A stretch of 54,804 nucleotides of DNA from a virus. The stretch spans positions 1-54,804 of IMG/VR virus record IMGVR_UViG_3300012920_000051, one strand, 5' to 3'. Of the stretch, positions 3,679 through 21,261 are shown piece after piece. The position numbers were made by a program, and so were the translations under genes. Under the pieces are notes generated by a model. It searched no databases. It was not told the origin of the DNA and saw only the letters and a list, made by a program, of their open reading frames with translations. Each line of letters starts with the position of its first letter. Position 1 is the first letter of the stretch.

Positions 3679-5637
3679 ATGTTAAAGAAGGTAAGCTTTA
3701 AGCTTAACGATGAATTTGTACTTTCTTACGCAGACAAGAAAGTCCCTTGGGGTCCTTTGGGCTATTTCGTATATAAGCGCACATACGCACGCAAAATCGA
3801 AGGCACAGACCGCACTGAAGAGTGGTTTGAAACTGTACGACGTGTCGTTGAAGGCACATACGCCCTTCAGCAGTCGCACTGCAAGACCATGAATCTCCGA
3901 TGGGATGCTGATAAATCTCTTCGATCTGCAGAGAAGATGTACGATAAGATCTTCAATATGAAATTCCTGCCTCCCGGTCGTGGCTTGTGGGCTATGGGTA
4001 CTGAGATGGTGTGGACAAAGGGTTCAGCAGCGCTGAACAACTGTGCCTTTATTAGCACCGATAACATTGAAGACGACCCTACCGCCCCCTTCACTTTCCT
4101 TATGGACATGAGCATGTTGGGTGTCGGTGTTGGCTCTGATACTCGCGGCAAGAACCGCGTTGTCGTTCAAGAGCCGAACATAACAGATGAGCCTTTTGTT
4201 GTTTCTGATGATCGAGAAGGTTGGGTTAATCTGATCCGTACTGTCATTGGAGCGTATTTTGGGCGAAATGATCTGCCCGCTGAGATCGACTACTCTGAGG
4301 TTCGCGCTTATGGCGAAGACATCAAGGGTTTTGGCGGCGTAGCGAGCGGGCCTGAGCCTTTGTCTCGTCTCGTAGACGACATTAAGCGCGTCCTAAATGA
4401 GCGTGTTGGGGGTGTGTTGAGCGGTGCCGATATTGTAGATATCCACAACTACATTGGTAAATGCGTTGTTGCTGGAAATGTGAGACGAACCGCTGAGATC
4501 ATGTTTGGTGATCCCGATGATACAGAGTTCCTTGATCTTAAGACAGACATTGATGCTCTAGGAGATCGTCGTTGGGCTTCAAATAACAGCGTATTTGCGT
4601 ATGTTGGAATGCCTTATGATGAGATTATTAAACGTGTCGCGAACAACGGCGAGCCTGGGTTTATCTACTTGGACAACGCTAAGCGTTTTGGTCGCCTAAT
4701 AGACGGCCCTAAAGAGAGCGACACTCGTGTCAAGGGTACTAACCCTTGTGGCGAGCAATTTCTTGAGAGCTTTGAGCTTTGTAATCTCGTTGAGACGTTC
4801 CCCGCGAACCACGATTCTCTAGAGGAATATCTTGAGACGCTGAAATACGCCTATCTGTACGGCAAGTCTGTGACCTTGATGCCTACTCATAATCAAGACA
4901 CGAACGCTGTGATGTTGAGGAATCGCCGTATTGGTGTTGGTATGAGTGGCATCGTGCAGGCGATCTCTAAATTTGGTCGTGAGAAATTCTTGTTCTTTGC
5001 GAATGAGGGCTATCGGATCATCCAAGACCTCGACACTAAATATAGTGAATGGTTATGCATTAGCCGATCTGTAAAGACCACGACCGTAAAACCAAGCGGT
5101 ACTGTCTCTCTCTTAGCGGGCGCGACTCCTGGGATTCACTATGACCACAGCGAGTATTACATCCGTAATGTCCGCTTATCCGAGGACTCTAAGCTTGTAC
5201 CGCCTTGTATAGAGGCAGGATATCCTGTTGAGCGTTGTCAATATCAGCCTGGATCTCTTGTCGTGTCTTTCCCTGTAAAGAGCGTCAACTTTGAGAAGTC
5301 TAAGAGTGATGTGACTGCGCTCGATCAGCTCTCGTTGATCCGCGATCTTCAGACGTATTGGTCGGACAACAGCGTCTCGTCTACGGTTACGTTTACTAAA
5401 GACGAGGTAGAATCTTTACCGGAGGCTCTCCGTATGTATGAGGAGTATCTCAAGAGCGTGTCGTTCCTGCCTATTAGCGATCACGGTTATGCACAAGCGC
5501 CGTATATTGAGATCACTAAGGAAGAATATGATGAGCTCTCCTCAAAGATCACTCCTCTTGACGTGCAGGATGGCCATGAGGTCATCGAACGCTTCTGCGA
5601 CGGAGATGGCTGTGATATCCCAATTGAAGGCAATTAA
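3679..5637 (+). CDS. nrdJ: Adenosylcobalamin-dependent (class II) ribonucleotide reductase
   Basis: This 652-aa monomeric class II reductase converts ribonucleotides to deoxyribonucleotides for phage DNA synthesis. C122 (in NNCAF) and C368 would be the redox pair, and C357 in NPCGEQF the thiyl-radical cysteine, with E359 two residues on; the C-x-E-x8-C spacing matches the Lactobacillus-type enzyme. The C-terminal tail CDGDGC (C640/C645) is the reductant-shuttling pair. AGGACAG precedes ATG 3679. No R2-type subunit is encoded nearby, in keeping with a B12-dependent enzyme. This implies that the host makes or imports cobalamin. Confidence 0.92.
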   Translation: MLKKVSFKLNDEFVLSYADKKVPWGPLGYFVYKRTYARKIEGTDRTEEWFETVRRVVEGTYALQQSHCKTMNLRWDADKSLRSAEKMYDKIFNMKFLPPGRGLWAMGTEMVWTKGSAALNNCAFISTDNIEDDPTAPFTFLMDMSMLGVGVGSDTRGKNRVVVQEPNITDEPFVVSDDREGWVNLIRTVIGAYFGRNDLPAEIDYSEVRAYGEDIKGFGGVASGPEPLSRLVDDIKRVLNERVGGVLSGADIVDIHNYIGKCVVAGNVRRTAEIMFGDPDDTEFLDLKTDIDALGDRRWASNNSVFAYVGMPYDEIIKRVANNGEPGFIYLDNAKRFGRLIDGPKESDTRVKGTNPCGEQFLESFELCNLVETFPANHDSLEEYLETLKYAYLYGKSVTLMPTHNQDTNAVMLRNRRIGVGMSGIVQAISKFGREKFLFFANEGYRIIQDLDTKYSEWLCISRSVKTTTVKPSGTVSLLAGATPGIHYDHSEYYIRNVRLSEDSKLVPPCIEAGYPVERCQYQPGSLVVSFPVKSVNFEKSKSDVTALDQLSLIRDLQTYWSDNSVSSTVTFTKDEVESLPEALRMYEEYLKSVSFLPISDHGYAQAPYIEITKEEYDELSSKITPLDVQDGHEVIERFCDGDGCDIPIEGN

Positions 5638-6055: not shown

Positions 6056-6430
6056 ATGAACTACGATCTTAAGAGGATGAACAACGCCGTTGGCGTCATC
6101 AACTTGTCGCAGGGCTACGCAGTAGACCAATATATCGAGGATAATTACTTATTAGACTCAATCATCTTCGCTAAGGGTCTTGCCTTCGCGATTAACGTCT
6201 CGACGCGCGTCCGGCTTGATGACATTGACGTGCCTGTCTACTCACACTTACAGGCGTTTCGATCAAAGGCTATACTTGAGCGCTTGCGAACATCTCAGAT
6301 TGACGCAGAGCTCGTCGATGTCGCGGAGCGCTCGGGGATGTGTGTATTTGACATTAAGCATATATACTCATTCATTAAGCGTAACTACAACGCTAAGAGT
6401 CAAAAATCATTCCTAGCAGGCTTAGCTTAA
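6056..6430 (+). CDS. Unknown phage protein
   Basis: This 124-aa protein begins one base after the previous stop (TGATATG). Its C-terminal half looks helical, with an ELVDVAERSGMCVFDIKHI segment that could form a helix-turn-helix, but this is weak. I do not recognise a family. It ends the short operon begun at 5752; a new promoter follows at 6523. Confidence 0.65.
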   Translation: MNYDLKRMNNAVGVINLSQGYAVDQYIEDNYLLDSIIFAKGLAFAINVSTRVRLDDIDVPVYSHLQAFRSKAILERLRTSQIDAELVDVAERSGMCVFDIKHIYSFIKRNYNAKSQKSFLAGLA

Positions 6431-6522
6431 TTCTTCGAGACATACACACGCAACGTGTAGGCATACTACTAAGACAGTCTCGTATTAGAATTCAAATAAC
6501 GCTTATAAGCGCTATAATAAAT

Positions 6523-6576
6523 TTGCTAAGAAAATAGATTATCTGTAATATACTTACATGATCAATAATGATCATG
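6523..6576 (+). promoter_or_regulatory. Sigma70-type promoter with leader palindrome
   Basis: TTGCTA (6523-6528), a 17-base spacer and TAATAT (6546-6551) make a near-consensus promoter. At the predicted start lies a perfect inverted repeat, CATGATCA-ATAA-TGATCATG (6557-6576). It could be a 5' mRNA stem or an operator. Confidence 0.7.
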
Positions 6577-6609
6577 ACCCTTTAATCTCTTGTTTTAATG
6601 GAAACAACG

Positions 6610-7512
6610 ATGCAAGAACAAAACACCCTTAACCTAAACGAGTTGTACGCCGACGCTAAGAGCGTTCGCGACGCTATTAAACAAAAGGTGGCGCACTCGC
6701 GCAATCCGATGATAGAGGTATTTCACGACCACTTTGAGATCGCACTTCGGACTCCACCAATTCTAGCCGACACTGGCTTTGAAAAACTTGGCGACATCAC
6801 CGCGTTCTCGGACGCGATGCTCGCAATCAAGGATATGTGTCCTGACTATTTCGACGTTGGATTCGCGATTAACTCAATTGGCGAGATCGTACTGTACTAC
6901 CGACCGAATGCCTTTTATGCCGGGAACACGATGGCGCAGATGGTCATAGAGTCATTCACCCCCGAGGACATCGAGATTCACGTCCTGAGAGAGAGTGTCA
7001 ATCGCTTTCAGCGCCACATGCGACGTCGCTTGACAAGCACACAGGTCCGTGTCGTTAACGAGCGTACGACTGCTTCTCGTAAGACTCAACATCTTCGCGT
7101 CACTGAGAAGACTCCCGCAATCTCAGTGCCTTTTGATTGCGGTGCTCGCACGTCACCCTATGGCCGCGATTATGTTGTGTTTAGCATGAACGCCGTATAC
7201 GCAGCTGAGAACTTCGACTTGGGTTACAATCTGTCGGAGCTGATTGACCTAACTCGCCAAGGCGTGATCTCATTCTTGAAGACAACTGATTCGACTTGGA
7301 TGTGGGCGCGCCAAGACGATGACTATCGGATTGCTCCTCTTTGCTACGAGATTGATTGGGATCTCGACGAGGAGGACTACGTTCACGCCAACGCGGGTGA
7401 ACCTCTCCCAAGATTCCTTGAGCGTGACAACCTTGAGACAGCGGATGACTTTGTTAACCGCATCACTGAGGAGTATGGCTACTGCGTCTCAGGCATTCAA
7501 CCTGTCGTATAA
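6610..7512 (+). CDS. Unknown phage protein, 300 aa
   Basis: I chose ATG 6610 because GGAAAC lies directly upstream; the in-frame ATG at 6598 has no ribosome site. The first 130 residues carry mixed alpha/beta sequence, a basic patch (RHMRRRLTSTQVRV) sits near the middle, and the C-terminus is acidic. No family is recognised. It begins an operon under the 6523 promoter that continues through 7522 and 7848. Confidence 0.65.
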   Translation: MQEQNTLNLNELYADAKSVRDAIKQKVAHSRNPMIEVFHDHFEIALRTPPILADTGFEKLGDITAFSDAMLAIKDMCPDYFDVGFAINSIGEIVLYYRPNAFYAGNTMAQMVIESFTPEDIEIHVLRESVNRFQRHMRRRLTSTQVRVVNERTTASRKTQHLRVTEKTPAISVPFDCGARTSPYGRDYVVFSMNAVYAAENFDLGYNLSELIDLTRQGVISFLKTTDSTWMWARQDDDYRIAPLCYEIDWDLDEEDYVHANAGEPLPRFLERDNLETADDFVNRITEEYGYCVSGIQPVV

Positions 7513-11650: not shown

Positions 11651-11733
11651 TCGGCCTGAGCGAAAGTTATTCGGCCACTACCCTAGACAAGAATCGACGA
11701 GGCCAAGATACAGTGACTAAGATAAGAAGCACA

Positions 11734-11764
11734 GAGTTTTAGAAAACTATGGTTGAATCTGTAT
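11734..11764 (+). promoter_or_regulatory. Phage-specific motif AAAACTA-N10-TGTA
   Basis: GAGTTTTAGAAAACTA, ten bases ending TTGAATC, TGTAT. It stands in a gene-poor stretch (11651-12002) about 270 bp before the next gene; a second, sigma70-like promoter follows at 11910. Confidence 0.6.
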
Positions 11765-11909
11765 GGAGTATCGGCCTCTCAATACAGTATTTATGGCGTT
11801 GAATCGTGGCAACAAAAGCGCAATTTTGAGGTGCAAAATACAGGTTTTAAGATGCGGTGCATTACGCTTTTGAGCACCAAAAATAAATCGCTGGAGCATG
11901 CAAAGAGGT

Positions 11910-11938
11910 TTGAAAAACGATACGGACTATGCTAATAT
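11910..11938 (+). promoter_or_regulatory. TTGAAA-N17-TAATAT promoter
   Basis: TTGAAA at 11910-11915, a 17-base spacer and TAATAT at 11933-11938. The surrounding CAAAGAGGTTTGAAAAACG and the spacer AACGATACGG are shared with the promoter at 13839, implying coregulation of the two operons. Confidence 0.65.
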
Positions 11939-12002
11939 ACTATTGTGTGCGCCCATGCGCCCACGCCCCGCAACCCCCGAAAACACCAAGAAGGACATGT
12001 TG

Positions 12003-12782
12003 ATGACCTACAGAAGAACCGAACCTGAACATGCCGGGTGCGTCGATAACACGACTCACGGTTATGTTGATCCCGACGTGCTCGGCAAGCGAATGTCTAC
12101 GATCAGACAGCCCGCCGCGACGCTTAGAGCCTCCATCATGGAGATACGCATCGAGAAGCTCAATGAATTGTACGAGGAGTGCATCAAAGAGGGCGACTCC
12201 CCTGCTGAAGCGCATGAATACTGCTCCAAGAAGCTCAAACTGATACCTTCAGTAACGACCTCAATGCCCAACAAGAAGACTCGCGCCCGAAGAGGTATCC
12301 GCGACCCTCAAGAGCTCAACGACATCTTGGATCTACCTGTCCGCTCGATCCAAGTGGATCACCGCCACCATCGTGACGGATTCATCTTCACGGTGCGTTA
12401 TCGCGGTCGTGATCGCCGGTATCATATGACGCACTCGCTCCTAGCGAAACTTAACCACCTCGAAGAACAATTCAACCTCACAGAGATGTCGAACAGAGAG
12501 CTTGATCGTGTGAGATCTACCCCACTCGACCGAAAGTGTCACTACACTGAGGAGAAACGCCGGGTAACATCGAACGACGACGCGCAGAGTCGCATGCGAT
12601 TCAATCGCAGATTGCATACACGGGTCGATCCGAACAGCAATCGACACGCCGTTAATCGTGAGCAGTCATCATATGATGCGCCTAAGAAGCGACGCCCCCT
12701 GACACAAGGCGCGACACCCGCAGACAGCAACTCCCGCGTTCCCGGACCTATCCAACGCAAGAGGCTCCTCAACCGACGTTAA
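12003..12782 (+). CDS. Unknown basic phage protein
   Basis: This is a protein of about 259 aa. I chose ATG 12003 because AAGGA ends seven bases upstream; ATG 11997 and 11955 are also in frame. Residues 35-85 look helical and mildly acidic, 100-150 look like a compact beta-rich domain, and the C-terminal 70 residues are very rich in Arg, Lys, Asn and Ser and look disordered. A basic tail of this kind often contacts nucleic acid. I recognise no family. It is driven by the TTGAAA-type promoter at 11910. Confidence 0.6.
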   Translation: MTYRRTEPEHAGCVDNTTHGYVDPDVLGKRMSTIRQPAATLRASIMEIRIEKLNELYEECIKEGDSPAEAHEYCSKKLKLIPSVTTSMPNKKTRARRGIRDPQELNDILDLPVRSIQVDHRHHRDGFIFTVRYRGRDRRYHMTHSLLAKLNHLEEQFNLTEMSNRELDRVRSTPLDRKCHYTEEKRRVTSNDDAQSRMRFNRRLHTRVDPNSNRHAVNREQSSYDAPKKRRPLTQGATPADSNSRVPGPIQRKRLLNRR

Positions 12783-15597: not shown

Positions 15598-15603
15598 CTT
15601 AAG

Positions 15604-15639
15604 AGCCTGTCGCGAAAGAGCAATCGCGATGGGCTTTTT
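15604..15639 (+). terminator. Rho-independent terminator
   Basis: AGCCTGTCGCGA pairs with TCGCGATGGGCT over all 12 positions (two wobbles) around an 8-base loop, followed by TTTTT. It ends the 13.9-15.6 kb operon and precedes the first structured non-coding region. Confidence 0.85.
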
Positions 15640-16063
15640 CGTAAGCTGCGCGCGCGTGTAAACTCGGGTCGAGATCTCGGGGCGAGCCTGATTCCTGTGG
15701 CTGTAGACAACAACTACGGCGAAGTGCTATTAGACGAAGCTAATAAGCAACACACAAAGTGACAAGAAAAGCGCAAAGCGACTTGGCTAAACGGTTATCT
15801 ACAAGCGAAAGATCAAAGCGAAAGATCGAAAGCTACAGGTGGCGGACCCTAGCGAAAGTGCTTGGAACGAGAACGAGCGCAAACCGCCATAAGCGAGGTT
15901 TTCGCAAAGACGAGCTCTACAAGCATTTTGAACAGCATATACAGCGCATCTTACGAGCGACCAAAGCGCTTACTACGAGCGACTTGCTTCTTTAAGGCAA
16001 GCGATCCTGCTTCCCTAGCCAAGCTGTGCTTGTGATGAGCCGAGCGTTGCCTGTTATTGGTAT
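15640..16063 (+). ncRNA. Candidate structured RNA 1
   Basis: This stretch has no convincing gene; a basic frame at 15759-15995 is discussed as rejected. It is dense in self-complementary segments readable by eye: CTCG-GGT-CGAG (15663-15673), CTCG-GGG-CGAG (15676-15686), a GTAG/CTAC stem (15700-15720), GC-TATTAG/CTAATA-GC (15726-15748), a long helix TGGCGG/CCGCCA (15840-15889) enclosing CC-AGC/GCT-GG (15848-15865), GCGA/TCGC (15893-15905), CTTGC/GCAAG (15983-16001) and CAAGC-TGT-GCTTG (16020-16032). AGCGAAAG recurs and could supply GNRA loops. I see no clear promoter or terminator, so the boundaries are approximate. I infer a structured RNA by helix density only. Confidence 0.45.
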
Positions 16064-16090
16064 CAGCCGGTTCTGTCGTACTGATTCAAC

Positions 16091-16196
16091 GTGACTTTTC
16101 TAAAACTTTTTTATTGCGCTCGTCTTCTGTGTGTAATACTATTGACACGATGTTGTGATAACATCGCTACACTTGAAACCGTGTCTCTTGTGACAC
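16091..16196 (+). promoter_or_regulatory. Promoter and double-hairpin leader of the 16231 gene
   Basis: GTGACTTTTCTAAAACTTTT matches the upstream half of the AAAACTA motif and is shared with 18475. A weak -35 (TATTGC, 16112) lies 15-16 bases before TAATAC (16133-16138). The leader then has CGATGTT-GTGAT-AACATCG (16148-16166) and GTGTC-N6-GACAC (16181-16196). Confidence 0.5.
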
Positions 16197-16230
16197 ACAT
16201 ACACCGCGCTTATGCGCCCAGGGTAACGCT

Positions 16231-17151
16231 ATGAACGCTTATACTTTCCCTCGTCACTTTGCTGATCCATCACGCGATGAAATCAATGTTCTCTTGACTG
16301 ATGATCATCTACGCGCTGATCTTGATGATAACGCTCGTCTTCGCATGTTGTCTAATGACTTGTCACCGTTCTTTGTTGATAACATCTCTGATCTTTATGA
16401 TGATGTGCCAACCTTTCACACCGGTAACGATACATATACTCCTGATTTCTCTAATCTGCTTAAATATATTGACATGCTTGATGCTGTGATCACTGATTAT
16501 TTCTTTGATGATCCTATGTTGATTGATCTCGCTATTCGTGAATGTAATTACGCATTACCACGACGATCAACAAACTTGATTCATTCTCGCTCTGATCTTT
16601 CGCGCGTCTATGCTCGTCTGTATGCTCACTATGTCACCTTCTCAAATTCAACGATTACTCATGATCGTGTGTTTAAACAAATCAATCACATGATCGAATA
16701 CGCGCGCGACCATATGCCGAACGCTCACTTCATTATCACCGATGATTGCATGCAATCGCTTCAACTTCCATCCTTGATGCATTTGATTAACTATTGCGCT
16801 CTCACACCTTCGCGTATCATCTCGCATCACTTGATCCCGCGATCTGTTAACACTGAATCATTTCTTGATATCGTGCTCTACTGCAACTCACATTTTGATA
16901 TGCCTCGATACCTCTATACACGCTATAATGATCTATATGAACAATCACATCATATTGACTTTGATGATCTCCGCTCAATTAATGTTTATATGACTGCATA
17001 TACTACGCTATCACCGCTTTCTATGCGATACCCTGCCAACAATCATCACGCTCACAATAATGTTGATCTTAACACCGATCATACACACCAATACTACAAC
17101 ACCCTACCTATGCTTGATTCCGCTCCTAATGTCTGTAAATTCACGCGCTGA
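16231..17151 (+). CDS. Unknown protein encoded in AG-free DNA
   Basis: This is a 306-aa protein with no recognisable family. The coding strand contains no AG and only one GG in 921 bp, so the protein has a single Gly, no Trp and only three Lys, and is rich in Asp, His, Asn, Tyr, Leu and Ser. Despite this constraint the frame is long and open, which argues for selection on the protein. It looks soluble and mainly helical. The only purine-rich site before the ATG is CAGGG at 16219-16223. GATC is frequent within the gene. The 18574 gene shares the same composition and leader design, so the two probably belong to one functional module. Confidence 0.7.
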   Translation: MNAYTFPRHFADPSRDEINVLLTDDHLRADLDDNARLRMLSNDLSPFFVDNISDLYDDVPTFHTGNDTYTPDFSNLLKYIDMLDAVITDYFFDDPMLIDLAIRECNYALPRRSTNLIHSRSDLSRVYARLYAHYVTFSNSTITHDRVFKQINHMIEYARDHMPNAHFIITDDCMQSLQLPSLMHLINYCALTPSRIISHHLIPRSVNTESFLDIVLYCNSHFDMPRYLYTRYNDLYEQSHHIDFDDLRSINVYMTAYTTLSPLSMRYPANNHHAHNNVDLNTDHTHQYYNTLPMLDSAPNVCKFTR

Positions 17152-17344
17152 TACTCTCCAGCCGGGTAACGATACGCACTAAAACACTCTCTAACCACGT
17201 TTAACACTCTAACCTATGTGTTGATACACGTCGCGACCGAAACGCACTACACGCGCTAATCTCGCGACGATTTGAACACTCCCCATCTGACCACTTGACC
17301 GCGATTGAACCCACCCGACCCCCAACCGCGCTAAAGCACCCTCT

Positions 17345-18040
17345 CCCCTGAGGATTGCAAGCCAAGCCTCTCCTATGAGGGGCTTAAGTCAAGCGACTAA
17401 TTAAAGATATCAAGGTAGTAGAACAAAGAGGAAGGCGATTGATTAGCGAAGCGATTGCTTTGACCGGTGGGCGTGTGCCGTAAGCGAAGAAAAAATTTTT
17501 ACGAGCGTTAGCTGTATCTCGATTTCGACCGAGATAGATCGCGATTCAAATCTGGATGCCTCGATCATGATCGCGAGGTGTGCTCGGAAGAACCACAAGA
17601 GGTACCTTGATGACCGACAAGTGAAACGAGAAAGACGCTACGGTTGCATCCTGATGTTTCCTAGCACTATCGAGCAAGAACCAAAAGCGACGCGCTAAAC
17701 TCGCCAAAGTGACTCGCGAACCCCGAACAAGTGAAGCGCTTTCGCCTCGCGAACAAGAATCGAGAGCGCCTCTATGAGCGCCCTAGCTAAAAAATGTAGC
17801 GACACAAGCCAAGCCAAAACTTTACTACGGCAAGGCCACATAGCGACAAAATAAGTGGCCCGAGGTGATCAGCGACAATAGTACCTGGGTGGTACTCTTT
17901 GTTGACGTTTCCTAGGATAACCTTAGCGAAAGTTGCGCTTAAGGTGAGGTAACATCGGCTAGGCCGAAAGGCGAGACTCGGGACGAGCGAAAGTTGCGAA
18001 CGCAATCTTTCGTATAAATCGCGATTTTTCGCGATTTTTG
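17345..18040 (+). ncRNA. Candidate large structured RNA 2 with terminator
   Basis: This is a roughly 650-700-nt stretch without a gene and with many clear helices: AAGCCTCTC/GAGGGGCTT (17364-17385), TATCTCG/CGAGATA (17515-17536), a long-range GGATGC/GCATCC helix (17554-17559 with 17646-17651) enclosing CTCG/CGAG, GGCCAC/GTGGCC (17834-17860), CGACAA-AGTACC/GGTACT-TTGTTG (17873-17904), ACCTTAGCG/CGC-TAAGGT (17920-17945), a GCC-GAAA-GGC tetraloop hairpin (17963-17972), CTCG-GGA-CGAG (17977-17987) and an 11-bp stem (17988-18012). It ends with an intrinsic terminator at 18016-18039. AG is common here, in sharp contrast to both flanks. Large phage RNAs such as GOLLD or ROOL are possible relatives, but I cannot assign the family. 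Confidence 0.55.
18016..18039 (+). terminator. Intrinsic terminator of structured RNA 2
   Basis: AAATCGCGA-TTTT-TCGCGATTT is a perfect 9-bp stem followed by more T residues. It fixes the probable 3' end of the structured RNA. Confidence 0.75.
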
Positions 18041-18054
18041 CTGTTCGCCCTGAC

Positions 18055-18079
18055 CGAACGATCACCCCCTCATCGTTCG
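18055..18079 (+). promoter_or_regulatory. CGAACGAT/ATCGTTCG inverted repeat
   Basis: A perfect 8-bp inverted repeat with a 9-base spacer. The same arms recur at 18178-18200 (ATCGTTC/GAACGAT, spacer 9) and 19821-19839 (CGTTCG/CGAACG, spacer 7). It is a likely protein-binding operator. Confidence 0.6.
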
Positions 18080-18149
18080 ATCAAACCGAATTGTCAAATA
18101 ATCGAAATAATGCTTGACATGCGTTCCGGACGTGTAACGCTATGCAACC

Positions 18150-18222
18150 TTGTACAACCTTCCCCGCCTCTCTAAATATCGTTCTGTTTAACCGAACGAT
18201 TAACCTTGTACAACCTTGTACA
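18150..18222 (+). repeat. TTGTACA repeats, cluster 1
   Basis: TTGTACAA at 18150-18157, then TTGTACAACCTTGTACA at 18206-18222 with a 10-bp period (one helical turn). The second CGAACGAT-type inverted repeat lies between them. A matching cluster is at 19780-19889. This is iteron- or operator-like. Confidence 0.65.
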
Positions 18223-18237
18223 CCGTTTTGTCCGCCT

Positions 18238-18306
18238 CGTGAAATTTCGCGTATCGTCTCCATGAAATTTCGTGTGTCGTCTCCATGAAATTTCGTGTGT
18301 CGTCTC
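18238..18306 (+). repeat. 23-bp tandem repeat, three copies
   Basis: The unit CATGAAATTTCGTGTGTCGTC plus TC is present twice exactly and once diverged (first copy CGTGAAATTTCGCGTATCG...). Each unit contains the palindrome GAAATTTC. Confidence 0.8.
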
Positions 18307-18474
18307 CACTCGATTCCACGCGCGCGACATCATCACGCTCTGATCATTCACGGGCTCGTATCGTTACGCTCTTGTGTCGATTCTACGCGCCACCTGTAAA
18401 TTTTTTTCAAACTGAATTATGTAACGATTACGAACACTTACGCTGCGTCATTACACATTCAACGTCACTTTTCT

Positions 18475-18538
18475 AAAACTTTTCTTGACCTCCTCGATCA
18501 ATCTGCTATTGTGCCTCATGTGATCGCTGTTGATCACA
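18475..18538 (+). promoter_or_regulatory. Promoter and hairpin leader of the 18574 gene
   Basis: CACTTTTCTAAAACTTTT, shared with 16091, precedes TTGACC (18485-18490), a 16-base spacer and TATTGT (18507-18512). The leader has TGTGATC-GCTGTT-GATCACA (18519-18538). Confidence 0.6.
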
Positions 18539-18573
18539 CACCAAACCATTTGACTCCACAGGGAGACAACGAT

Positions 18574-19275
18574 ATGACATTCACTCTGAATGATCTTACT
18601 ACCCTCGCAACCGCTAAACGCAACCGCGCCACCTCAATCGCTCCTGACGCTCACACCATCGACGTCACCACGCTACGCTCCGATGCTCCTCTGATCACTG
18701 ATCACCCGCTCGCTACGTTCATCAATGACCTGTCAAACGCTCGTACTGTGCTCGCTAACTGCACGTCATACGATGACCGCATGATTGTCTCTGATCACGC
18801 CTCAATGTACCTCGACAACGACCGTAAATGCTTTGTGCTGTGCCTCGATGCTCACGACGCTAAACGCGCTCCTCGTACCTCTGGACATAACGTTGTGACT
18901 CTCACCGCCGACCGCGCTACGCTCAAACGCTCTGACATGCGCCACGCCGTTAACGCCTTCGTTTCGATCGCTCACGTGTCGATCATGCTTGACCGCTTTG
19001 CATCCTACCTCACGCATCCTGTGACTGCTATCGCCTTCACACGTTCACGCGCTCATGATCTCACCTCTAACGTGATCCGATATGATCACACTCACTACTC
19101 ACCTGTAACTCTCGCTCACGCGACCGCTTGCGCTGTCGTGATCCTCTCTGATCACAACCACGACACATACGCGCCCGCCTTCAACGCATGCCTTGATATG
19201 CTGAACGCATCTGATCACGCGCTCACCATCACCTGTGACGCTTACCCTGACTCTGTGCGCGCTCCTCTCGCTTGA
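18574..19275 (+). CDS. Unknown protein encoded in AG-free DNA
   Basis: This is a 233-aa protein. ATG 18574 follows CAGGGAG, the only AG-containing stretch in the neighbourhood. The coding strand has no AG and one GG, so the protein has one Gly and no Glu, Gln or Trp, and is very rich in Ala, Thr, Asp, His and Ser. The sequence otherwise looks like a folded alpha/beta protein (for example HAVNAFVSIAHVSIML and ACAVVILSDHNHD). TGATCAC recurs many times. I recognise no family. Leader hairpin, promoter layout and composition match the 16231 gene, and a perfect terminator follows at 19353. Confidence 0.7.
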   Translation: MTFTLNDLTTLATAKRNRATSIAPDAHTIDVTTLRSDAPLITDHPLATFINDLSNARTVLANCTSYDDRMIVSDHASMYLDNDRKCFVLCLDAHDAKRAPRTSGHNVVTLTADRATLKRSDMRHAVNAFVSIAHVSIMLDRFASYLTHPVTAIAFTRSRAHDLTSNVIRYDHTHYSPVTLAHATACAVVILSDHNHDTYAPAFNACLDMLNASDHALTITCDAYPDSVRAPLA

Positions 19276-19352
19276 CGCGCTGACTTGACCTGACATGTGA
19301 TTGCGTGACTTGACTCCACATCATCGACCGCGATCACCACGCTCTACGCCTT

Positions 19353-19387
19353 GAAACGCGACGCTCAAAACGTCGCGTTTCTTGTTT
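19353..19387 (+). terminator. Terminator after the 18574 gene
   Basis: GAAACGCGACG-CTCAAAA-CGTCGCGTTTC is a perfect 11-bp stem followed by TTGTTTG. It keeps the AG-free rule, which shows that intrinsic termination is possible under the constraint. Confidence 0.8.
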
Positions 19388-19398
19388 GTGTGCTCTCC

Positions 19399-19424
19399 AG
19401 GAAGACACCGATATGATGCTGTGA
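19399..19424 (+). other. Orphan translation-start-like sequence with three-codon frame
   Basis: CAGGAAGACACCGATATG closely resembles the start region of the 18574 gene (CAGGGAGACAACGATATG). Here the ATG is followed by ATG, CTG and TGA, giving a three-codon frame. It may be the remains of a third gene or a deliberate minimal ORF. Confidence 0.4.
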
Positions 19425-19732
19425 TCTCTGCGCAGCCGGGTATCGTTACGCGCTTGATCCTTTGTTTTGAATCCTCCCCCTACCTCCTATGCTCTTTGTG
19501 TGTGTCTCACCTCTTCGCCTCGTGTCTTGTGATGATGTGTCGTGTGCCTCACGCGCGCTCTAATGCCTCTCTATGCTCGCTTGCGCTCTCTACCTATACC
19601 TACCCCTATGTTGACTTGCTTACGTTCCTCTGTGTGCAATCTCGCGCGTCTTGTGTTTCCACGTTGCGCGCGTGTGTGCTATCCGCCGTGTCTCGTCTCA
19701 CCTTGCTTGACCTCTCGCGTTGGTATCGTTGC

Positions 19733-19772
19733 GCGTGAAATCTCCACGCGCGACCGCGTGAAATCTCCACGC
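19733..19772 (+). repeat. GCGTGAAATCTCCACGC repeat, two copies, 23-bp period
   Basis: Two identical 17-bp units start at 19733 and 19756. Each is an inverted repeat (GCGTG/CACGC). The 23-bp period equals that of the tandem repeat at 18238. Confidence 0.7.
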
Positions 19773-19779
19773 CTCAACC

Positions 19780-19889
19780 TTGTACAACCTTGTACACGCG
19801 CGACCGCCCGACCGCGCGACCGTTCGCTCAAACCGAACGATGAAAAAACCGAAAAAAAATCAAAAAAAACCTGTACAACCTTTGTACAA
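19780..19889 (+). repeat. TTGTACA repeats, cluster 2
   Basis: TTGTACAACCTTGTACA at 19780-19796 and CTGTACAA/TTGTACAA at 19871-19889 (spacing 11) flank the inverted repeat CGTTCG/CGAACG (19821-19839). The element order mirrors cluster 1 at 18150. Confidence 0.65.
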
Positions 19890-20014
19890 CGATACTGTGA
19901 ACGCGCGTTCACACTCGCGAATTCCTGAAAATTTCTGAAAAAAACCCGAAATCACGAACCGCGGAGCCCTGACCGCCTTTACGACGGAGTGAATTTCCCT
20001 AGACTCGGACAAAA

Positions 20015-20045
20015 AGTTTCCGAAAACTACCGTTGAATCCGTATA
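20015..20045 (+). promoter_or_regulatory. Phage-specific motif AAAACTA-N10-CGTA
   Basis: AGTTTCCGAAAACTA, ten bases ending TTGAATC, CGTATAA. It lies just downstream of the AG-free module and about 90 bp before the 20138 gene. Confidence 0.6.
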
Positions 20046-20062
20046 AGAGACAGAAATAACTC

Positions 20063-20137: not shown

Positions 20138-20452
20138 ATGACAAGACTATTCCTGTTAAAAACCAAAGGCAAAGACCACACGGGCAAGCTGTGGGGCCAC
20201 TCTAAGATGCACCTTATTACTTTCGCGACTGATCTTTTACGAGAGGGTCACATATTAGAGGCTACGATCTACGAGGCGATCTTTGAGCATGACTCGTCGT
20301 TGCGTCAACTGTTGGTGTCTGTGTTGAACGGCGAATCAAAACCCACACACAACCAAGTGTGGCGTTCTACGGCCTCTGATCACGAGGCGCAGCTACAAGA
20401 CGTACAAGACATTCAATCCGTACAAGACATTCAATCCGTGGAGCCATCATGA
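20138..20452 (+). CDS. Unknown protein with duplicated C-terminal repeat
   Basis: This 104-aa protein starts at ATG 20138, six bases after GGAG; ATG 20126 contains that site. The C-terminus ends in two VQDIQS repeats encoded by an exact 18-bp tandem duplication (20402-20437), suggesting recent slippage. The rest is helical. It overlaps the RusA-like gene by 4 nt (ATGA), so it may act with it in recombination, but no domain is recognised. Confidence 0.65.
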   Translation: MTRLFLLKTKGKDHTGKLWGHSKMHLITFATDLLREGHILEATIYEAIFEHDSSLRQLLVSVLNGESKPTHNQVWRSTASDHEAQLQDVQDIQSVQDIQSVEPS

Positions 20453-20961
20453 GTGACCTTGATCTTCGATTCTTTGCGTTGGGCGCACCGCGAGGCAAAC
20501 AACGCCCTAGAATGGCGCGTCGTGGGCGCAAGACCATCACATATACGCCTCAAGAAACCCTCGAATATGAGCGTAGAATTCGGGAGGCTTTTCTGTTGGC
20601 TTCTTTACACGATCAACTGCCCTTACGGGGGCCACTGTGGGTAGATGTGATCGCGATCTTCCCGCGGACTAAGGCGCTCTCCTTTCGATATAAGAACGGC
20701 ACATACAAGCACAGCACCTCGCGGATATTGCACGCTGTGAAGCCGGACGAAGACAACATACGGAAGTGCGTCCTAGATGGGATTAATGATTACATCGAGG
20801 GTGGTGATTCTCGCGTTGTGGGCGGTACAACCTTGAAGGTGTATGCGTCAATCGACGAGGAGTGTGGCACGCTTGTTAGAGTCCGCAATGCCGAGAGCCT
20901 TGAGGCGCTTGGCGCGCTCTACGATTTCGGCTGGGGTGCGGGCTCCATTGATGCGCCCTAA
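20449..20961 (+). CDS. rusA: RusA-like Holliday junction resolvase
   Basis: This 170-aa protein matches the RusA family, Mg-dependent endonucleases that cut four-way DNA junctions. The catalytic core is visible as KPDEDNIRKCVLDGIND (98-114) followed by GGDSRVV (118-124) and a Lys at 130; the Asp residues are the metal ligands. The N-terminal region APRGKQRPRMARRG is the usual basic entry of the family. Its role would be to resolve replication or recombination intermediates before packaging. Its last 114 nt overlap a convergent minus-strand gene. Confidence 0.87.
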   Translation: MSDLDLRFFALGAPRGKQRPRMARRGRKTITYTPQETLEYERRIREAFLLASLHDQLPLRGPLWVDVIAIFPRTKALSFRYKNGTYKHSTSRILHAVKPDEDNIRKCVLDGINDYIEGGDSRVVGGTTLKVYASIDEECGTLVRVRNAESLEALGALYDFGWGAGSIDAP

Positions 20962-21261
20962 TTCGCGGGTCATTCTACGCGAGCTATTGTTCATGTGATT
21001 TAGTTGCTTTAAGACCTTCTCTCGTAGAGCCTGTGCCTCGCGTTCACGCTCTAGGACTTCTTGGCGTTCACGATCATTATCTAAAACTAGATGATCACCA
21101 TGATCGTCGGGCATGGACATCATTGGATTATCCATAATAGCCCCATCTTCGCTGTGATGAACCATCCCCTCATTTGTATAAGAGATGGCTTCTGTCTTTG
21201 CGCCCATGAGGGCGAGATATGTGACCGCGCCGAGCGCGATAACCACTAAGAGATATCTCAC
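20848..21261 (-). CDS. Membrane-anchored coiled-coil protein, spanin-like
   Basis: This 137-aa protein is on the minus strand. Residues 2-20 are a hydrophobic anchor, then comes a Met/Asp/His-rich linker and a long charged coiled coil (residues about 60-115). This inner-membrane anchor plus periplasmic coiled coil is the layout of i-spanins (Rz). It overlaps the upstream minus-strand gene by 4 nt and the convergent RusA gene by 114 nt. With the 21258 gene it likely forms the lysis accessory set for the endolysin at 1553. Confidence 0.5.
   Translation of the reverse strand: MRYLLVVIALGAVTYLALMGAKTEAISYTNEGMVHHSEDGAIMDNPMMSMPDDHGDHLVLDNDRERQEVLEREREAQALREKVLKQLNHMNNSSRRMTRELGRINGARTPAEIVERAKRLKALGIADSNKRATLLVD

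Follow-up and report, generated by a model that had tools for sequence, protein, structure and literature searches.

Near-complete removal of purine-G steps from one strand of a phage locus, with the remainder held in directional islands

A locus of approximately 3.9 kb in a metagenomic virus contig has lost nearly all AG and GG steps from one strand, in coding and non-coding DNA alike. The contig, IMG/VR record IMGVR_UViG_3300012920_000051 (G000), is probably a fragment of a myovirus-like phage, and the window analysed here is the whole 54.8-kb record (54,804 nucleotides, nt). We write RG for AG or GG; RG on the + strand is CTN or CCN on the - strand. The locus comprises two RG-poor zones, each with one open reading frame (ORF), separated by a spacer (Table 1). 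Newly recognised here are that the residual RG steps form directional compound islands, that the rule is conserved in a relative, and that the spacers are rich in AAG, AGT and AGC but poor in CAG. The observation is real, strong and conserved and, to our knowledge, without precedent: a limited literature search returned no natural case of one-strand dinucleotide removal this complete over kilobases and kept in a near-unalignable relative. The comparison set comprises two close sequences (the window and the relative L004) and a distant one (L011/G006), all metagenomic, and the promoters, terminators and origin discussed at the locus are predictions.

On the + strand the two zones together retained 7 AG and 15 GG, compared with approximately 128 AG and 100 GG expected from local composition, or approximately 195 AG at the window-wide AG frequency. 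A sequence-only reading of the window had counted seven AG steps, and our recount returned exactly these (16220, 17160, 18560, 18564, 19399, 19403 and 19434). It had also confined GG to a few short elements, and each leftover RG of the window zones indeed belongs to one of the compound islands described below. The complementary steps were not cleared: the + strand of the zones contained 309 CT, equal to expectation, and 186 CC, approximately 0.6 of expectation against 0.75 for the whole window, in agreement with the strand specificity claimed earlier. GA was also common in the zones. The eleven longest RG-free runs of the + strand all lay in the locus (737, 516, 319, 283, 241, 224, 207, 201, 170, 151 and 136 nt); the next-longest was 84 nt, and on the - strand such runs reached 89 nt at most. 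Zone boundaries were sharp, and the spacer at 17335-17993, around which the zones had originally been split, displayed a normal AG count. The bias was as strong in leaders, 3' parts and intergenic DNA as in genes, and extended to a predicted terminator stem, as expected from the proposal that the rule acts on genes and non-coding DNA alike.

In each zone the ORF has the features of a real gene: 306 and 233 codons are open despite frequent TGA, and both ORFs show Shine-Dalgarno (SD) sites and codon-position bias. When the same four proteins (ORF1 and ORF2 of the window and of L004) were each re-encoded 1000 times with the phage codon usage, the mean number of RG steps was 36, 31, 31 and 34, as against 1, 1, 2 and 6 observed. 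The minima were 18-22, and none of the 1000 re-encodings fell below 18. Since the deficit persists against re-encoded proteins, it is not an artefact of codon bias or amino-acid content; RG was missing from all three codon phases of the zone genes, and the non-coding parts agree with the earlier argument against codon bias. The zone proteins of both phages contained 0.3-0.9% glycine, compared with 7.2% in the other proteins of the phage, no tryptophan, and little glutamate, glutamine and lysine. Neither ORF had a match in PHROGs and only insignificant ones in Pfam; tblastn detected neither in the phage collection, nor ORF2 in plasmids. AlphaFold models built on two-sequence alignments were uninformative (mean predicted local distance difference test scores of 37 and 33).

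L004 (IMGVR_UViG_3300006752_000200), from a TerL search, was the sole close relative with the locus to be found. Queries with both ORFs, TerL, the promoter and SD elements and the neighbours on either side brought up no other close relative carrying it, and two scans of genome collections gave no match. The plan of L004 is that of the window: AAG-rich non-coding DNA, zone 1 with one gene, an AAG-rich spacer, and zone 2 with one gene. TerL and RusA are 88% and 83% identical between the two phages and the neighbour genes 60% and 48%, whereas the zones share almost no blastn similarity and neither ORF resembles its counterpart closely. Because ORF pairs that are only 23% and 30% identical are nevertheless RG-poor, hundreds of changes in the zones have been accepted, hardly any of which created AG or GG. 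As judged from this sequence comparison, strong purifying selection acts against AG and GG on the + strand of the locus, irrespective of what the DNA does locally, and the rule outlives the sequence. Selection on the rule is strong and independent of sequence, because the relatives keep the rule while the zone sequence has changed.

Whether homologues avoid AG had been named as a check that could refute the rule, and it gave a divided answer. L004 keeps the rule, and the distant relative L011/G006 (TerL approximately 48% identical) keeps a weaker version, with AG depleted and GG not clearly so, on the same strand over approximately 2.3 kb. The AG-poor stretch of G006 lies 8-10 kb 5' of TerL, a comparable place, and constitutes the strongest dinucleotide deviation of the 42.9-kb contig; its ORF contains 8 AG, against 29 expected for that protein, and 1000 re-encodings never gave fewer than 18. 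In contrast, the rule was not seen in relatives with 61-65% TerL identity, including L006 and L007 (64%), so that it either belongs to only some of the lineage or was lost from some of it. At the corresponding place L006 carries a long run of (TGTTGCTG/TGTCGCTG) units followed by a near-complementary (ACAGCATGAAA)n (6420-6660), upstream of a 1.6-kb A-rich, C-poor non-coding stretch. At its contig start the distant relative (L124, 1-160) carries the repeat GACGACGACGCCACCAAC (Asp-rich if translated), within its AG-depleted zone.

The RG steps that remain in the zones are organised. The island element consists of an RG stretch (GG, AGGG, GGGAG, AGCCGGG and similar), 0-7 nt, and then the palindrome RYANCGNTRY (R, purine; Y, pyrimidine; N, any base), for example GGGTAACGATAC, GGTATCGTTAC and AGGGAGACAACGATATG. 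The palindrome was found within 9 nt 3' of RG in 10 of 10 window islands and 7 of 9 L004 islands (chance approximately 0.04 per island), and 5' of RG in 0 of the 19. Its copies were concentrated accordingly, with 12 of 19 in the window and all 10 in L004 located in zones, none in spacers, and 7 in the 51 kb of the window outside the zones. Four islands coincide with the SD sites and start codons of the ORFs, one for each of the four; the others lie beside iterons, inside ORFs, after ORF1 and, in both phages, just past the predicted terminator. Spacing was regular in zone 2 of L004 (183-325 nt, coefficient of variation 0.20, p approximately 0.0001), although for all four zones jointly p was 0.005. 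The islands all point in the same direction, which suggests that RG itself is wanted there, as a signal needed at set places and forbidden elsewhere. The palindrome was also considered as an RNA hairpin; this was rejected because positions 2 and 9 of the ACA...TAT copies hold C and A, which cannot pair.

The DNA flanking the zones follows a different composition. The spacer and the upstream non-coding DNA are purine-rich, with 128 AAG against 66 expected, 54 AGT against 15 and 8 CAG against 31; the spacers are also rich in AGC and depleted in GG. A 30-nt element, ATTCAAYNNNACTTTTCTAAAACTTT, precedes the predicted sigma70-like promoters of both ORFs in both phages. Its four copies inside the zones lack RG and have AC where two copies outside have AG. 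The predicted terminator stems (19353-19381 in the window and 6516-6535 in L004) are built from pyrimidine-G steps only (AAACGCGACG..CGTCGCGTTT), so the rule is obeyed inside a hairpin. Past the predicted terminator the window had 3 AG and 4 GG where 24 and 25 are expected, L004 2 and 2 (17 and 18 expected) and G006 1 and 3 (9 and 11 expected). Upstream of promoter 2 there was no AG in 491 nt and in 320 nt of the two phages. Clearing is thus as strict outside the predicted promoter-terminator span as in the gene, transcription of these outer parts being itself only a prediction. Inverted repeats directly after the predicted -10 boxes (16144-16170, GATGTTGTGATAACATC; 18519-18537, TGTGATCGCTGTTGATCACA) are possibly repressor operators of the zone genes.

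Table 1. Positions of the zones, genes, islands and other elements (window numbering unless L004 is named)
Feature	Position (strand)	Remarks
RG-poor zone 1	16071..17334 (+)	2 AG, 5 GG in 1264 nt
RG-poor zone 2	17994..19962 (+)	5 AG, 10 GG in 1969 nt
L004 zone 1	L004 3539-4650	RG-poor, one gene
L004 zone 2	L004 5321-7013	RG-poor, one gene
ORF1	16231..17151 (+)	306 amino acids; glycine 0.3%; no tryptophan; no known family; 23% identity to L004 counterpart
ORF2	18574..19275 (+)	233 amino acids; one glycine; no tryptophan, glutamate or glutamine; 30% identity to L004 counterpart
RG island	16220..16233 (+)	SD of ORF1 (AGGG) + GTAACGCTAT palindrome overlapping the start codon
RG island	16423..16433 (+)	GGTAACGATAC, inside ORF1
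RG island	17160..17176 (+)	AGCCGGG + GTAACGATAC, after ORF1
RG island	18128..18144 (+)	GGACGT + GTAACGCTAT, adjoining iterons
RG island	18352..18367 (+)	GGG + GTATCGTTAC
RG island	18560..18575 (+)	SD of ORF2, AGGGAG + ACAACGATAT
RG island	18883..18896 (+)	GG + ATAACGTTGT, inside ORF2
RG island	19399..19414 (+)	AGGAAG + ACACCGATAT, directly past the terminator
RG island	19434..19449 (+)	AGCCGGG + GTATCGTTAC
RG island	19722..19732 (+)	GG + GTATCGTTGC
AAG-rich non-coding stretch upstream of zone 1 (up2)	15600..16060 (+)	AG mostly after A or G; CAG and GG depleted
AAG-rich, CAG-poor non-coding spacer	17335..17993 (+)	normal AG count
Promoter-upstream element ATTCAACGTGACTTTTCTAAAACTTTT, copy 1	16079..16110 (+)	also before ORF2 and both L004 ORFs
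Promoter-upstream element, copy 2, with predicted sigma70-like promoter	18452..18512 (+)	TTGACC-16-TATTGT
Inverted copy of promoter-upstream element	20011..20050 (-)	right of zone 2, outside the zones; has AG and GG; paralogous control
Predicted intrinsic terminator	19353..19381 (+)	stem without RG
Left iteron-like cluster	18146..18227 (+)	AACCTTGTACAACC and ACCGAACGAT repeats
Right iteron-like cluster and AT-rich, unwinding-element-like DNA	19776..19955 (+)
RusA	20449
TerL	22891
Portal	24748
Tape measure	35563
PhoH, thymidylate synthase, ribonucleotide reductase		encoded on the record

Taken as a grammar of two letters on one strand, RG would be forbidden in two long zones save for directional islands of the form RG-N0-7-RYANCGNTRY, which would mark the places open to a strand-specific enzyme, be it a primase, a nickase or an RNA endonuclease; the rule would strip amino acids from the zone proteins and be kept after sequence turnover. 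Our confidence in this formulation is evenly balanced. Some activity would start or cut at RG on one strand; the islands would need it or put up with it, whereas in the rest of the locus it would do harm. We infer that selection against such an RG-recognising, one-strand activity is the core common to the two serious models, primase and RNA cutter. The finding implies that an enzyme whose one-strand recognition rule is very simple acts on this DNA or its RNA. It also shows that selection at the nucleic-acid level can outrank selection at the protein level, enough to strip amino acids from proteins. Avoidance of restriction sites and dinucleotides in phages is likewise selection against short words, but usually concerns palindromic words on both strands genome-wide, whereas here a single strand of a single locus is affected.

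A DNA-level cause is favoured because RG is avoided upstream of promoter 2 and past the terminator as strictly as in the gene. We tentatively prefer the reading in which the locus is, or is part of, an origin region whose - strand must not offer start sites (CTN/CCN) to a DnaG-type primase. With its repeats and AT-rich end the locus resembles an origin or a centromere. Iteron-like TTGTACAA occurs in 4 and 7 copies on the two sides of ORF2, in zone 2 only and nowhere else in the window; ACCGAACGAT repeats also lie in zone 2, and its right end is AT-rich. Direct repeats flanking a gene next to an AT-rich stretch likewise characterise iteron-type phage and plasmid origins, although here an initiator homologue is not recognised and the origin is predicted. 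L004 also carries in zone 2 two identical TGTTTCACGTGAAACG sites (TATGTTTCACGTGAAACGT; 5538-5556 and 6870-6888) flanking ORF2, in place of which the window has GAAATTTCG-type repeats; we take these L004 sites to resemble bacterial parS. In the phage replication origin proposed, zone 2 would supply the iteron-like repeats and the AT-rich right end, and the purge of CTN/CCN would leave the - strand of the zones without RNA primers for a fork entering from the right. Second-strand priming would then begin only at set places, either the islands or the AAG-rich spacers.

Several observations are consistent with avoidance of primase starts. DnaG-type primases start at CTG, CTA and CCC (PMC5204125), and these begin with the CT and CC steps cleared from the - strand here; the known C-first starts belong to the CTN/CCN class and therefore count in favour of a primase. 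In C. difficile CCC and CTA are skewed between strands (PMC5204125); such biases at DnaG starts are mild and chromosome-wide, in contrast to the near-total clearing of only 3.2 kb seen here. In relatives with 38-65% TerL identity, the larger contigs carry genes for a DnaB-type helicase and, close by, for a DnaG-type Toprim protein, so that the lineage has such a primase, although the window fragment does not. CAG, which is CTG on the - strand, and GG are scarce in the spacers as well, which points to a primase, and the cumulative GC skew turns at approximately 20 kb, which argues for an origin. Our lean to a primase, weak as it is, follows from the DNA-level extent of the rule and the origin-like look of the locus.

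A considerable list of points weighs against it. DnaG starts only about once per kb in the cell, and the high cost of a single stray CTN is therefore hard to explain. CTT and CTC, which are not known as good starts, were purged from the zones too. Only one strand is cleared, and forks from the left could still be primed. The iterons and AT-rich DNA are no more than suggestive of the predicted origin, no initiator homologue was recognised there among the window proteins scanned, and part of the GC-skew turn is due to the zones themselves. Four of the islands are no more than SD sites, CAG is low in DNA downstream of the locus too (20401-21200), and neither the window nor the L004 fragment bears its own primase gene. 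If avoidance of primase starts is correct, the specificity of a primase in a living cell can be read directly off the locus.

Escape at the level of RNA is, in our view, only slightly less likely. An endoribonuclease, either phage-made or a host abortive-infection toxin, would cut at purine-G, and only the two RG-cleared transcripts would survive, with SD sites kept for translation and shielded by ribosomes. Consistent with this, clearing affects the sense strand of the two ORFs in each phage and, in G006, that of the AG-depleted genes; the start of zone 1 lies, in either phage, within approximately 15 nt of the promoter-upstream element; all four ORFs keep an SD; and the zone ORFs evolve fast, like counter-defence genes. 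That ACA-less mRNAs escape MazF is established and has been put to use by engineering (PMC9102682, PMC5408214). In those single-protein-production systems, too, a transcript freed throughout of a short RNA word outlives the cutter of that word; they are engineered or incidental, whereas the present word has two letters and its removal is natural, conserved and inclusive of DNA past the predicted terminator and upstream of the promoter. This extent, with clearing reaching 320-490 nt upstream of promoter 2, argues against an RNA target. Moreover, the SD islands are RG-rich (up to four) rather than minimal, most other islands keep RG and palindrome without translational need, and a cutter with a 2-nt site would destroy all other mRNAs of the phage.

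As to the nuclease itself, we know of no RG-specific RNase. T4 RegB is a phage endoribonuclease that cuts GGAG in ribosome-binding sites; it is likewise phage-made and hits purine-G words of SD sites, but needs GGAG or GGAC, whereas isolated CAG, TAG and AAG are cleared here too. No RNase was recognised among the window proteins scanned, a scan that included no search specific to RegB. RNase Y, the single general RNase considered, was rejected as the agent: in B. subtilis it prefers G before the cut and GA across it (PMC4608709, PMC11780869), yet GA is common in the zones. RelE-type in-frame cutting was rejected as well, given the loss of RG from all three codon phases and from non-coding DNA. 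Should an RNase nevertheless be responsible, the locus would be a natural counterpart of ACA-less mRNAs and point to a new defence or takeover nuclease.

It is improbable that the islands are primary, as sites of a DNA-binding protein (core ANCGNT, LacI-family-like) or as parts of a partition or segregation system, with RG cleared to prevent false binding or loading of a polar motor. The concentration of RYANCGNTRY in the zones and its absence from the spacers, the regular spacing in zone 2 of L004 and the two parS-like sites there fit such a role. A dimer binding double-stranded DNA explains neither 17 islands facing the same way nor the unaffected CT and CC of the + strand, and two letters are too few to make a false binding site. 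The palindrome does have the central ANCGNT of LacI operators, but the free orientation and symmetric flanks of these were not observed: the islands face the same way, their flanks are asymmetric, and neither a LacI-type regulator nor a ParB gene was found among the ORFs scanned.

Least of all do we credit the unusual mutational process that the sequence-only reading had offered among its causes, in which strand-specific mutation (for example deamination of C in CT and CC on the - strand, or a local error-prone polymerase) eroded RG while selection kept SDs and operators. The very fast divergence of the zone proteins relative to TerL and the location of leftover RG in plausible functional sites would fit, but deamination predicts a change of RG to RA and no such G-to-A surplus was seen: the share of A is 0.21-0.27 in the zones, 0.29-0.34 in the spacers and 0.26 overall, and what the zones have gained is pyrimidines. 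The AC of the in-zone promoter-element copies against AG outside is a transversion, and the zone edges are sharp. A splice-site reading (pyrimidines followed by YAG) was rejected for a phage with sigma70-like promoters and SD sites and no intron, and avoidance of CRISPR protospacer-adjacent motifs because a single strand is cleared. The remaining probability falls to a cause not thought of here.

Candidates for further loci of this kind were also discarded. Pyrimidine-rich zones on the - strand of L009, L010 and L021 showed only mild depletion at low G content, and matches in a scan with the SD element were chance occurrences inside ordinary genes. One of these matches fell in an unrelated viral contig, L108, which has a 600-nt stretch (11701-12300) with RG odds of 0.25; this is G-poor repetitive DNA (GAACCTG...), probably the antisense of a repetitive gene. 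Rfam gave no credible match. To the right of the locus, positions 20043-20055 (GTATAAGAGACAG) are identical to what we take to be the terminal 13 nt of the Tn5/Nextera mosaic end; this is probably chance, given that the gene order continues as in L004.

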